From an uncultured Mycobacteriaceae bacterium (lineage in GTDB: Bacteria > Actinomycetota > Actinomycetes > Mycobacteriales > Mycobacteriaceae): a stretch of DNA of 64,000 nucleotides. The notes under the pieces are model-generated. The model was not told the DNA's origin, ran no database searches, and saw only the letters and a list, made by a program, of their open reading frames with translations. This document shows positions 19,462 to 43,899 of the stretch, in pieces. The stretch covers positions 1 to 64,000 of the forward strand of contig CADEGF010000044.1 of the NCBI GenBank assembly GCA_902826815.1. Direction: 5' to 3'. How positions within the stretch are numbered: the stretch's first letter is position 1; every line of letters starts with the position of its first letter. A program made the translations under genes and the position numbers.

Positions 19462-21179
19462 CAACCACCAACGAACGACATCCATTCTTCGTCTGGGCGT
19501 GGAGCCTGGTGCGACTCGACTTCCTCGGGATCGCGTTCGGCGCGCTGTTCTTCTGCCTTTCGCTGACGCCGTCCCTGCTGCCGCGCGACTGGTTGTTCCA
19601 GGGACTGATCGGCGGAGTCAACGCCGCCATCGGCTACGGGATCGGTGTATTCGCCCAGAAGATGTTGCACCGCTTCGTGTTACGACGCAGGCGCTGGTGG
19701 CCGCCGTCGAAGCGAGTCCTGTACTGGTGCAAAGCGGCCACCATCACGCTGTCGACCGCCGCGAGCCTGCTGATGCTGATCCCAGCGGCGGCCTGGCAAC
19801 GCAGGGTGTCTGCGGTGATGGGTATCGAAGGTCCTAACACGTTCGGTTACCTTCGCGTCCTGATCATTGCGATGCTGGTGACCGGCCTGTGTGTGTCGTC
19901 GGCGCGCGTCGTCATCGACGTCATCAAGACGATGGCCCGGTACTTCATCCGGCGTTGGCGCCTTCACGACGAGGTTGCGTTGTTCATCGGCACCGCGATC
20001 GTCGTCGTGCTGGCGATCACATTGATCAACGGTGTGCTGATCCGCGGCTTCCTGGCAGGGGCCAACCGGGTGTTCCAACCGCAGAACACCACCACGAGAG
20101 AGGCCATCACCCAACCGCTGAACCCCGAAAGATCAGGTAGCCCAACGTCTCTCGCGCCTTGGGAGACTCTGGGCTACCAGGGCCGCAACTTCGTCGCCAC
20201 CGGACCGGATGCCGACGAGTTGACCCGGCTGAACGGCTCGCCCGCCAAGGAGCCGATCCGGGTGTATGCGGGTCTGCAGACAGCGGACACAGATCAGGCT
20301 CGTGCCGACATCCTTGTCCGCGAACTGGACCGCACCCGCGCGTTCGACCGCAAGGTGCTCGTCATCGTCCCGACGACGGGCACCGGCTGGATAAACCCCG
20401 TCGCCGCGCGGTCGCTGGAACTGATGTACAACGGCGACACCGCGATGGTCGGCTCCCAGTATTCGTATCTGCCGAGCTGGATTTCGTTCCTCGGCGACCG
20501 GGACAAGTCCATGCGATCCGGTCGGACGATGATCGATGCGGTGCACGCCTGGTGGGCGCGTCTGCCCGCCGACCGGCGGCCCAAGCTGATGCTCTACGGC
20601 GAAAGCCTCGGCTCGATGGCCGGCCAGGGCGCGTTCAACTGGCTCCCCGACATTTCCCGGATGGGGTTCTCGTCGGTGCTCTGGGTGGGCCCGCCCAATG
20701 CGAGTCCACTGTGGGAGGCCATCACCGTGCGGCGTGATCCGGGAACCCCTGAGGTCGAGCCGCGCTACGACAACGGGCGCACGGTGCGGTTCTCCCAGGC
20801 CAACGGTGCCGCAGAGATCGCCGCCGACACGGATGCGCCGTGGGAAGGCACGCGCGTGTTGTTCCTCCAACACGCTTCGGACCCGATCGTGTGGTGGTCG
20901 GAAAACCTGATGTTCAATCAGCCGGACTGGCTCAAGGAGCCGCCAGGCCGGGACCGGACTCCGTTGATGCGGTGGTATCCGATCGTCACGTTCTGGCAGG
21001 TCGCCGCGGACATGACGAACGCAAGTTCGGTTCCCGGTGGACATGGACACAACTACGGCGATTACGTGCTCGACGGTTGGGCCGCAGTCGCACCGCCCGA
21101 CGGCTGGACCCCCGAGGACACCAACCGGATCCGGATTGCACTCGAGAAGACCGAGGCTGACGACGGACCTGAGTATTAG
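19458..21179 (+). CDS. Membrane-anchored alpha/beta-hydrolase family protein
   Basis: A 573-residue protein with an N-terminal membrane domain of about four to five helices (roughly residues 20-215) and a C-terminal alpha/beta-hydrolase-like domain. The nucleophile elbow is [12 protein letters not shown] (Ser in GESLGS), the acid may be in HASDPIVWW and the His in [14 protein letters not shown]. The domain pair is common in actinobacteria and of unknown substrate; a lipase/esterase role is a guess. GTG start overlaps the purL stop (GTGA). Confidence 0.82.
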
Positions 21180-21811
21180 TGCGTGCCAATCAGTTTCGGG
21201 CGGTGGCGTTGGCGGCGGGGCTGGTCGGCTGGAATGGCCTGATCGCTCCCCGGATACCGGAGCGGCTACGACCGCTGGCCAACGCGGCATTCGGAGCCGG
21301 GCTGTTGGCGTCGGCCCGGGCTCCGCTCGGTCTGCGGCCACCTCAGCTGTGGTCGGGCGTCAGGCTCGGGCTGGCCGTCGCCGCACCGATCGTCATCGGT
21401 GTCGCCGCATCGACGGCGGCCCCGCCGGTGCGGTCGGCGATGGCCGATCGCGATCTACCCGCATCGCCGTCACTCTGGCTGGGGGTACGGATCCCCTTCG
21501 GGACCGTGTGGTCGGAGGAAACCGCGTTCCGCGCGGCGTTGGGCACGGTTGCCGCAGGCGCGTTCGGGCCGACCGGCGGACGACTGCTGCAATCGCTGGC
21601 TTTCGGGCTGTCTCATATCGATGACGCCCGCAGCACCAGTGAACCGGTCATCGGAACGGTTCTTGTGACCGGCATCGCGGGGTGGCTCTTTGCGGTACTG
21701 CGTGAACGGTCGGACAGCCTCGCCGCACCGATGCTCGCACACCTCGCGATCAATGAGGCTGGTGCGGTCGCGGCGCTTGCGTTGCAGGGCGCTTATCGCC
21801 GCTCGCCCTAA
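21179..21811 (+). CDS. CPBP-family intramembrane metalloprotease (Rv0804-like)
   Basis: A 210-residue polytopic protein of the CAAX protease/bacteriocin-processing family. Motif 1 is SEETAFRAALGT (EExxxR), motif 2 is AFGLSHI and motif 3 is MLAHLAINE. The start GTG shares one base with the upstream stop (TAGTG), so it ends the purL-hydrolase run. Substrate unknown. Confidence 0.84.
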   Translation: MRANQFRAVALAAGLVGWNGLIAPRIPERLRPLANAAFGAGLLASARAPLGLRPPQLWSGVRLGLAVAAPIVIGVAASTAAPPVRSAMADRDLPASPSLWLGVRIPFGTVWSEETAFRAALGTVAAGAFGPTGGRLLQSLAFGLSHIDDARSTSEPVIGTVLVTGIAGWLFAVLRERSDSLAAPMLAHLAINEAGAVAALALQGAYRRSP

Positions 21812-21816
21812 ACCCC

Positions 21817-21877
21817 CGCGAAATTGCATTCCGGCAGGCCCGCACTCGACTTTTGTCTGCCGGAATGCAATTTCGCG
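21817..21877. repeat. 61-bp palindromic element, copy 1 (left of the nuclease gene)
   Basis: Two perfect 21-nt inverted arms (21817-21837 and 21857-21877, beginning CGCGAAATTGCATTCCGG) enclose a 19-nt loop. Copy 2 at 22773-22833 has the same arm and loop lengths and matches it at 18/21 in the left arm and 19/21 in the right arm. Both copies have the same orientation. Confidence 0.92.
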
Positions 21878-21919
21878 AGAGATGGGAGCGCACTGGGGGG
21901 CGGCGGACGTCTATTCGAT

Positions 21920-22768
21920 GTGGGCGAGGTTTTCATTGGGACCGAGGCAGTGGCCGCCGGCCTCGTCACGCGACATGAACTCGCGCGCTGGTATCGCCCG
22001 TTCTACCCGAACGTGCATGCGCGTCGCGGTCAGCGATTGACCGTTCGCGACCGCACCGTCGGCGCGTGGCTATGGTCCAAGCGGCGGGGGATAGTCACGG
22101 GCGTCGCGGCATCAGCGATGCACGGCGCTGAATGGGTCGATGCGGACATCGATATCGAATTGATCCACCAGTGTCCTCGGCCTCCGGCCGGCATCATCGC
22201 GCGCAATGAACGCATCGCTGACGACGAAATCACCTCCGTCGACGGCATTCCCGTCACAACCATCGCGCGAACCGCACTCGACTTGGGTCGGTACCAGTCG
22301 CGTGGGCAAGCGATTGCGCGGATGGACGCCTTGATGCGGGTTGCGCCGTTCTCGACTGAGGACGTGTTGCAGTTGGCCAAGCGGTACCGCGGCGCGCGAG
22401 GTGTGAAACGACTCAAGGAGGCCCTCCCGCTCGTCGACGGCGGAGCGGCCTCGCCACGGGAAACGTGGCTGCGGCTGATCTACATCGACGCGGGTATGCC
22501 AAAACCAAGAACCCAGATACCGATATTCGATGTCGACGGCACGGTCTTGAGGACCGTCGACATGGGCTGGGAGGAGTTCAAGGTCTTGTCCGAGTACGAC
22601 GGCGATCAGCACCGCACAGACCGCCCGCAATACGTCAAGGACATGCGGGTGATCCCGGAGATCGAGCGCCTCGGCTACATCGTCGACCGGGTCATCAAGG
22701 AAGATCGACCCGCCGCGATCGTGCGTCGCGCCTGGGACGCCATGGTCTCGCGCGGCTGGCGGCCGTAA
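21920..22768 (+). CDS. AbiEi-like winged-helix plus DUF559/Vsr-like nuclease domain protein
   Basis: A 282-residue protein. The N-terminus (about residues 1-60, VAAGLVTRHELARWYRP) resembles the winged-helix domain found in AbiEi-type antitoxin proteins. The C-terminus (about 175-282) has a PD-(D/E)XK/Vsr-like pattern: Glu181, Asp214 and EYDGDQH (Glu225-His231), followed by DMRVIPEIERLGY. GTG 21920 was chosen because an earlier start would run through the palindrome and the family begins at this point. It is bracketed by two 61-bp palindromes. Function unproven; a nuclease linked to defense or to element mobility is possible. Confidence 0.75.
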   Translation: MGEVFIGTEAVAAGLVTRHELARWYRPFYPNVHARRGQRLTVRDRTVGAWLWSKRRGIVTGVAASAMHGAEWVDADIDIELIHQCPRPPAGIIARNERIADDEITSVDGIPVTTIARTALDLGRYQSRGQAIARMDALMRVAPFSTEDVLQLAKRYRGARGVKRLKEALPLVDGGAASPRETWLRLIYIDAGMPKPRTQIPIFDVDGTVLRTVDMGWEEFKVLSEYDGDQHRTDRPQYVKDMRVIPEIERLGYIVDRVIKEDRPAAIVRRAWDAMVSRGWRP

Positions 22769-22772
22769 CCTT

Positions 22773-22833
22773 CGCGAAATTGCACGTCGGCAGGCCCCTT
22801 CTCGCACTTCCGCTGCTGGAATGCCATTTCGCG
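22773..22833. repeat. 61-bp palindromic element, copy 2 (right of the nuclease gene)
   Basis: Arms 22773-22793 and 22813-22833 with a 19-nt loop, starting 4 nt after the nuclease gene stop. The arms pair imperfectly, unlike copy 1, which suggests an older or degraded copy. Confidence 0.9.
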
Positions 22834-22842
22834 GACAACGGG

Positions 22843-24048
22843 CTAGGGGTTGATGGTCGCCTCGCCGATCGTCCGGCCCCAGATGTAGTCCTGGGTGATG
22901 GGCGAAGCGAGCTCCGCGTGGTTGTACGGCGCGATGCTGTAGCCGGTGTCCATCACCAGATACGGGAACGGATACAGGTCTTTGGTGACTTGCTGCCAGC
23001 AGCCGGGGCGACCCTCCGGTCCGCCGTGTGCGTTCACTCTCGGCAGATTGTCCGGGTAGATGAAGGGATTGCCCGGCAACAGAATCGTTCCGTACGACTT
23101 GAGCGCGTAGCCGTTGTCGCCACCCAGCACCTTGGCGAGCTTGGGTCCCTCCTCCGCGTAGTTGCGGATGGTGCAGAAGATCATGGCGCGGTAGTCGTCG
23201 AGCAGTTTGGTGGTCGGCAGCAGGTCCTCGGCGGCGCGCACGAAGTACGGTCCGCCGCGCTCAAAGATTTCGGCGGCGGTGGGGCCGAACCCGATCGCCG
23301 CCATCAGCGCGCTGTCGATATTTCCCTGCTGGTCGTTGAGCGTCCGCGCTGTCGTCGCGGCATTGTCCAGGCCGTCCCACAGGCCGGGGGAGGCGTCGGC
23401 GTACACATCGGCGAGGTCGGCGAGGGCCTGCTGATCGGCGCGGATCTGCGGCATCCGCGGGTTGAGGTCGGCCATGATGCGGTTGGCGTTGATCAGTGAG
23501 TCGCCGAACCGCTGGCCAAGGCCCGTCGTCGCATCGGCGAGTGCGTTGAGCGTCGCGTTGAGCTTGATCGGATCGACCTGCTCCGAGATCGCCGTCACGG
23601 TTTCGAAAAGCGTGTTGAACTCCGTCGTCACCGAGGATGCTTCGATTACGTCCCGGCTCGTAATGCGCTGCGGGCTAGGATCTTTCGGTGAGGTGAAGGA
23701 TATGTACTTGTTTCCGAACACCGTCGTCGCGCTGACGTCGGCCACGACGTTTCTCGGGATGAAGTCGAGATAGCGCGGTTTGACGTTCAGGGTCAGCTTT
23801 GCCTTCGGCGTGCCGTCGACGTTCACGTAGTCGACGCCTGACACCCTGCCGATCTCCACGCCGTTGTAGGTCACCTTGGAACCGGGGTCGACGACCAGGC
23901 CTGCGCGTGGGGCCATCACCGTCAGATGGGTTTTGCGCGTGAGCTCGCCGCGGAACTGGAGATACACGAGGCTCGCGGCAATCGCAGCGAGCACGATCAG
24001 GACCGCCCCGGCCGCCTTGTAAGGCGGCTTATGCCGGTCGACAATCAC
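22843..24048 (-). CDS. Solitary MCE-family (MlaD-domain) protein
   Basis: A 401-residue protein of the mammalian-cell-entry family. One N-terminal membrane anchor (about residues 12-30) is followed by the MlaD/MCE domain (about 38-115: THLTVMAPRAGLVVDPGSKVTYNGVEIGRV) and a helical domain. Such proteins normally form six-gene mce operons with YrbE permeases for lipid uptake; none of these lies nearby, so this one stands alone. GTG 24048 has a leaderless -10. Only 16 bp separate it from the divergent SCP-like gene. Confidence 0.88.
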   Translation of the reverse strand: MIVDRHKPPYKAAGAVLIVLAAIAASLVYLQFRGELTRKTHLTVMAPRAGLVVDPGSKVTYNGVEIGRVSGVDYVNVDGTPKAKLTLNVKPRYLDFIPRNVVADVSATTVFGNKYISFTSPKDPSPQRITSRDVIEASSVTTEFNTLFETVTAISEQVDPIKLNATLNALADATTGLGQRFGDSLINANRIMADLNPRMPQIRADQQALADLADVYADASPGLWDGLDNAATTARTLNDQQGNIDSALMAAIGFGPTAAEIFERGGPYFVRAAEDLLPTTKLLDDYRAMIFCTIRNYAEEGPKLAKVLGGDNGYALKSYGTILLPGNPFIYPDNLPRVNAHGGPEGRPGCWQQVTKDLYPFPYLVMDTGYSIAPYNHAELASPITQDYIWGRTIGEATINP

Positions 24049-43830: not shown

Positions 43831-43837
43831 CGCGGGG

Positions 43838-43899
43838 CGCCGAACGTGCGCCCACTGCGGAAGACCGCGTCAGAACTCGCAGCCAGCGCACGTTGGGCG
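43838..43899. repeat. 62-bp intergenic hairpin element (copy B), after pstB
   Basis: CGCCGAACGTGCGC (43838-43851) pairs with GCGCACGTTGGGCG (43886-43899) at 13 of 14 positions; an inner CTGCG/CGCAG stem lies within. It starts 8 nt after the pstB stop and probably ends the pst transcript. Its layout resembles the element at 10137-10194. Confidence 0.6.

Follow-up and report, generated by a model that had tools for sequence, protein, structure and literature searches.

The window analysed here, a stretch of 64,000 nucleotides of DNA from an uncultured Mycobacteriaceae bacterium, carries a gene in which an AbiEi-like module is fused to a nuclease domain and which lies between two copies of a palindrome (Table 1). 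An earlier note on this DNA had described a gene between two 61-bp palindromes with 21-nt arms and 19-nt loops, and the sequence agrees with this layout, which both copies share. The spacing given there also holds: the in-frame GTG at 21920 begins 43 nt past the final base of the left copy, and four bases separate the stop codon (22766–22768) from the right palindrome. This start was set by aligning the closest paralogue; an alternative open TTG start at 21824 falls within the left palindrome. The copies are direct, as had been claimed, with the same orientation and 74% identity in direct register over 74 nt. The arm matches of 18/21 and 19/21 reported previously need correction, since the arms are complementary at 21/21 positions in the left copy and at 16/21 in the right copy.

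Table 1. Features at the palindrome-flanked locus and elsewhere in the window (positions in the 64-kb window)
Feature	Position	Strand	Description
Left palindrome	21817–21877	none	Perfect 21-nt arms, 19-nt loop; ACTCG at 21844–21848
Right palindrome	22773–22833	none	Arms 16/21; loop orientation as in left copy
Window gene	21920–22768	+	AbiEi-like module fused to Vsr/EDxHD-like nuclease domain
AbiEi-like N-terminal part	21920–22438	+	Model residues 5–177
Vsr/homing-endonuclease-like domain	22439–22765	+	Model residues 178–286
Stop-to-stop interval of the two neighbours	21812–22842	none	1031 bp; missing in empty-site relatives
Left neighbour	21179–21811	+	Rv0804-family CPBP endopeptidase
Right neighbour	22843–24048	-	Mce-family protein, convergent
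Solo palindrome	43837–43898	none	Family of the contig 8 gene copy (L015); outside the window unit

With a score of 21, the left hairpin surpasses every other inverted repeat in the 64-kb window, the runner-up scoring 13; the maximum in five Markov-1 resampled windows was 11–12. Folded as single-stranded DNA, it has a z-score of −8.5. The right copy alone is weak (z = −1.5, with 16 of 200 shuffles folding equally well) and owes its significance to its match with the left copy.

A structure model of the window protein (pLDDT 96) matches AbiEi (6y8q) and I-Bth0305I (3r3p), and the nuclease domain is nearest to the homing endonuclease I-Bth0305I and to NGO0050. The reading of the protein as AbiEi plus a Vsr/DUF559-like domain is right by fold, although Pfam gives no match at E ≤ 0.01 and AbiEi_1 appears only at E 0.12. 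The best match to the PADLOC AbiEi models has an E-value of 3.2e-9. Among 85 family members, the Pfam models MTES_1575 REase and DUF559 match 69 and 47, respectively, the window protein matching neither at E ≤ 0.01. In the Vsr-like domain, S182, E185 and R189 are invariant across 85 sequences, and D218 and D245 are nearly so. The protein is under purifying selection, with dN/dS values of 0.08–0.20 across seven gene pairs.

Comparison with relatives shows how the unit is placed. In three of them, L087 (G151), L094 (G119) and L096 (G061), the two genes that flank the window gene stand end to end or overlap, with −11 to −4 between their stop codons, and neither gene nor palindrome is found at the site. 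The palindrome–gene–palindrome unit of about 1.03 kb is therefore an insertion, and empty and filled sites, a comparison raised in the earlier note, both occur among the relatives. At six other loci the gap between the neighbours is 84–793 bp and is filled with other sequence; L269 is filled like the window. BLAST similarity to a copy in G145, which is not an orthologue, begins at 21816 and ends at 22834, at the palindrome edge on either side, and other gene copies align with the window unit over less than this copy does. Neither a target-site duplication nor an exact junction was established.

The gene belongs to a widespread family. Its own genome has 17 matches to it, and a match was found in 144 of the 148 genomes of a genus-level sample (E ≤ 1e-60) and in 88 of the 118 genomes of a class-level sample (E ≤ 1e-20), covering 58 of 72 genera with its own included. 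The association of the family with palindromes was assessed by comparing the upstream flank of each gene copy with its downstream flank. At a score of at least 22, a matched pair was found for 48 of 74 gene copies. The same score was reached by 1 of the 107 shifted controls and by 5 of the 359 controls with swapped loci, which bears out the enrichment beside the gene family envisaged in the earlier note. At a score of at least 24 the corresponding counts were 45/74, 0/107 and 3/359. One further copy was left out of the set of 74 because its flank was too short, and L014 was scored negative despite a visible pair because its start was placed too far upstream. The earlier note had weighed the prospect of the gene being found everywhere without the repeats; copies with no detectable pair at a score of at least 22 are a minority (26/74).

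Further sets of loci gave similar pictures. The nearest 28 homologues in other genomes have a pair scoring at least 20 in 21 cases and below 20 in seven, an uncontrolled count in which ten loci also carry other numbers and one of these ten (L003) is among the 74. Pairs were seen at 26 of 32 named loci (36 in total, four being excluded as partial or at contig ends), a count that is likewise uncontrolled and overlaps the other sets. Outside the genus, 25 loci were available, two of them without flank; 20 of the remaining 23 passed, and with L184 dropped for self-overlap at a contig end the result is 19/22, compared with 7/300 swapped controls. The flanking pairs are direct in some loci and inverted in many. 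Most copies of the gene family carry a lineage-specific flanking palindrome pair.

The specificity of the palindromes was compared across 120 loci, of which 71 with a pair score of at least 24 were kept. The two flanking copies of one locus match with a median score of 36, a value that is raised because the loci were selected for pairs. Between loci, the palindrome score follows the identity of the proteins, being 41 above 70% identity, 22 at 60–70%, 12 at 50–60% and 9 below this, and a Mantel-type comparison of protein and palindrome similarity over the 71 loci gives a rho of 0.34 (0 of 1000 permutations). The loop core is conserved while the arms vary: ACTCG, on either strand, occurs in 31 of 71 upstream copies as against nine expected from shuffles, mostly in mid-palindrome and often followed by N-ACTTT, and the motif ACACGCC occurs in 11 of 71 (0.9 expected). 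The upstream palindromes of L013, L014, L018 and L076 contain TTATCCACA or a similar sequence, which we take to resemble a DnaA box; a strict TTATCCACA-like pattern is present in 3/71 upstream and 0/71 downstream copies, with 0.5 expected.

Arms also differ between close relatives of one gene. The contig 49 paralogue, which is 82% identical, has different palindrome arms with compensated changes. At one orthologous site six species all carry the gene; three of them have CGCGAAACTGTATTCC-type arms, two have CGCGAAATTGCATTCC-type arms and the sixth has the CGCGAGCCTGTAACCACG type. The arm type is broadly alike at both ends, and the upstream copy is flipped in three. The relative L269, whose gene occupies the same site as the window gene, carries a perfect palindrome on either side; the arms of the two are identical and depart from those of the window left copy at two positions, both compensated. 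In the window right copy the 3' arm agrees exactly with the L269 arm but the 5' arm does not, so that concerted change, or homogenization, is incomplete at the window site. The flanking copies of one gene thus tend to change together between orthologues. Quasi-palindrome correction is a process able to make symmetrical changes within one hairpin, and it could explain these but not the matching across the gene.

The palindromes that flank the genes also exist as solo copies in intergenic DNA. Window-type palindromes were detected in 123 of 148 genomes by a search that counted both strands and scored no more than 36 candidates from any one genome, and a finer search of the window's own genome found at least 29 distinct places, of which three among the 29 listed adjoin gene copies. 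The earlier note had considered copies scattered with no tie to the gene family; they are scattered, yet tied to it. A second gene copy of the same genome also has solos, and the palindrome family of L202, from another actinomycete genus (G253), is found in 36 places, two of them beside its gene. Contig 2 of G253, which bears this gene, holds 14 of the 36, and five besides the flanking two lie within about 100 kb of the gene; this clustering may point to local spreading.

The number of window-type palindromes in a genome rises with the similarity of its best gene copy (rho 0.57, n = 148, uncorrected for kinship; counts on both strands, at most 36 per genome), the median being 24 where the gene is closest (26 genomes) and two where it is most distant (28 genomes). 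Solos are only modestly better matched to the gene copies of their own genome: the mean score is 37.5 against own-genome gene-flanking copies and 33.5 against those of other genomes, and the own-genome copies have a mean rank of 5.0 of 12 (n = 38, p 0.005). The match of solos to the own gene is clear in the window's own genome but not in G106 and G035, where the gene palindromes are degenerate.

The solos sit near gene ends. From a rough gene call, 17 of 35 distinct solos lie between convergent, 14 between tandem and one between divergent genes, with one inside an open frame and two at an edge; a few of the 35 are mutually orthologous. Such placement, near gene ends and mostly between convergent or tandem genes, could be expected of passive hairpins, that is, of selected bidirectional terminators or of palindromes that stand beside these genes by chance. 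We regard this as very improbable, in view of the lineage-specific match on both sides of one gene family and not at shifted positions, and of the conserved loop core. In addition, no T run follows either window palindrome on either strand, and a scan limited to loops of 3–8 nt likewise found none at the window palindromes.

The same placement bears on a second alternative, that of an AbiEi-type regulator or defence protein which controls its own expression, with the palindrome as its operator and the solos as a regulon or by-products. AbiEi and Rv2827c are described as binding 23-bp inverted repeats and thereby repressing their own promoters (PMC7319586), and the window protein has the AbiEi fold and one palindrome directly upstream of its gene. 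Relatives also match defence models weakly, 10 of 85 the NCBIfam anti-phage ProA model (best 1.7e-5) and 5 of 21 the PADLOC model PDC-S37. An operator would not, however, account for the second copy directly past the stop codon, and across 71 loci the downstream copies are as self-complementary as the upstream copies (median 0.25 versus 0.26 per nt, p 0.32); nor does the scarcity of solos between divergent genes suggest a regulon. We therefore consider this explanation improbable. The defence or toxin module offered by the earlier note is likewise less favoured, though the weak anti-phage matches would allow a defence role: a search of a phage collection gave no match, and the neighbours of the window gene are the CPBP protease and the Mce gene. 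No toxin partner (AbiE nucleotidyltransferase) stands beside it.

A comparison of two genomes that are about 95% identical, G106 and G035, is informative about how sites change. One intergenic site is occupied in G035 by a complete palindrome–gene–palindrome unit (gene against the family profile 2.9e-22, pair score 35) and in G106 by a single palindrome with other arms. This pair of sites is compatible with a homing-type element, in which the nuclease would cut a solo palindrome and the gene with one palindrome would be copied in by homologous repair; the gene would end up between two palindromes, and recombination loss would restore the solo. The resemblance of the nuclease domain to I-Bth0305I and NGO0050 also speaks for homing. 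We nevertheless hold it to be unlikely. The three empty relatives at the window site have no palindrome at all, the pair is inverted rather than direct in many loci, the G035 and G106 palindromes differ in their arms, and the dispersal to new sites would be left unexplained.

A solo that G106 has at another site is missing from G035. In G147 and G044 a palindrome adjoins the same right-hand gene, with a different left-hand neighbour, G149 has one likewise placed but with other arms, and G130 has none; it seems that G035 lost the palindrome rather than that G106 gained it. At some sites, gene-order differences between relatives stop no more than a few bases from a solo palindrome, as though the palindromes marked rearrangement breakpoints. 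Such sites are L245/L246 (G106 674433, G035 C9:88865–90397), L240/L244 (G106 1122538, G035 C78:92449–93968) and the site with a solo in G106 and none in G035. One extra stretch at these sites looks, from its translation, like a CoA-ligase gene.

The explanation that we favour, and judge to be probable, is that the palindrome–gene–palindrome unit acts as the master locus for a family of dispersed hairpin repeats, organized like a REPtron but with an unrelated hydrolytic nuclease. A REPtron consists of a RAYT gene flanked by its own palindromic repeats, with solo copies in intergenic DNA and a gene that is kept vertically (PMC3733652, PMC8049555). The window family resembles this arrangement (RAYT with REP or REPIN) in that its gene is flanked by cognate palindromes, the same repeat is dispersed as solo copies and the gene is vertically inherited under selection, as seen from the site shared by six species and the low dN/dS. 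It differs in its enzyme, which combines an AbiEi-like module with a Vsr/EDxHD nuclease and is not an HUH tyrosine transposase, in its elements, which are hairpins of roughly 50–65 nt, and in the absence of GTAG at the ends of 11 aligned window-type copies. A Y1/HUH transposase (PF01797) is absent from 9 of 11 palindrome-rich genomes tested (the window's own and eight of ten others), and in those nine the palindromes cannot be put down to a RAYT. The REP-like hairpin unit with its own non-RAYT nuclease that the earlier note proposed is therefore supported; its further step, mobilization by the protein, is one that we infer, as we do that the nuclease binds and cuts its palindrome.

In such a master locus, the AbiEi-like module would bind the palindrome arms as double-stranded inverted repeats. 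By analogy, the two 23-bp repeats of AbiEi resemble two 21-nt arms with a 19-nt spacer, and arm recognition is therefore a natural guess. The Vsr/EDxHD-like domain would then nick or cut the palindrome, either in the region of its core (ACTCG-N-ACTTT for the window type) or once it is extruded as a hairpin, and host repair or recombination would copy the palindrome into other breaks and homogenize existing copies. The gene would stay put and be vertically inherited while its palindromes multiply in trans. Here a hydrolytic PD-(D/E)XK-type nuclease would replace the HUH tyrosine transposase. The fold of the nuclease part cuts DNA by hydrolysis, so joining and spreading would have to come from host repair; mycobacteria possess end joining, which would suit the spreading of palindromes.

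More broadly, actinomycetes may have an independent counterpart of the RAYT/REP system, with several AbiEi–nuclease fusions per genome that each spread their own hairpin through host break repair, arms and DNA-binding modules that co-diversify, and private pairs that coexist in one genome. For this extension we consider the balance to be about even.

The other known systems share parts of the organization. Vsr-like (EDxHD) homing endonucleases, including I-Bth0305I, have the same catalytic fold and conserved acidic residues, but the window locus has no intron or intein and its gene is bracketed by palindromes that also occur alone. With AbiEi and Rv2827c (type IV toxin–antitoxin) the window unit shares the AbiEi fold and an inverted repeat upstream of the gene; unlike them it has an extra nuclease domain, a second palindrome downstream and solos, and its gene lacks a toxin partner. 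MTES_1575 is described as a novel Vsr-type REase domain in a large fusion with helicase, HEPN and wHTH domains (PMC3710099), and the text of that paper has no word beginning with 'palindrom'. Among the papers listed by searches of the open-access literature, none dealt with an association of AbiEi–nuclease genes with palindromes. Within these papers the repeat–nuclease partnership is new, because its enzyme is unrelated to the known mobilizer, and it may be functionally convergent with REPtrons.

Dispersed palindromic repeats occur in many bacteria. The dedicated mobilizer described for them in two papers on REPtrons is an HUH transposase (PMC3733652, PMC8049555). If the explanation is right, a second, unrelated enzyme class has the same organization, in a family matched in 58 of 72 actinomycete genera, and repeat–nuclease partnerships would have evolved convergently. 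It would also give a function to the abundant protein group that joins AbiEi-like modules to DUF559/MTES_1575 domains, account for one class of hairpin found between mycobacterial genes and supply many natural protein–palindrome pairs for reading out DNA recognition.

Some other arrangements were seen in and around the family. L022, L023, L024, L048, L044, L062, L065 and L083 form a second subfamily, more distant at about 25% identity, which also has its own palindromes; several of these contain GGCGTGTCG/CGACACGCC. The family gene copy at L043 (G004:C1:5569853–5576329) is broken by about 2.6 kb, a tandem double palindrome lies upstream of the L054 gene, and three palindromes cluster within 1.7 kb at G147:C1:943598–945257.
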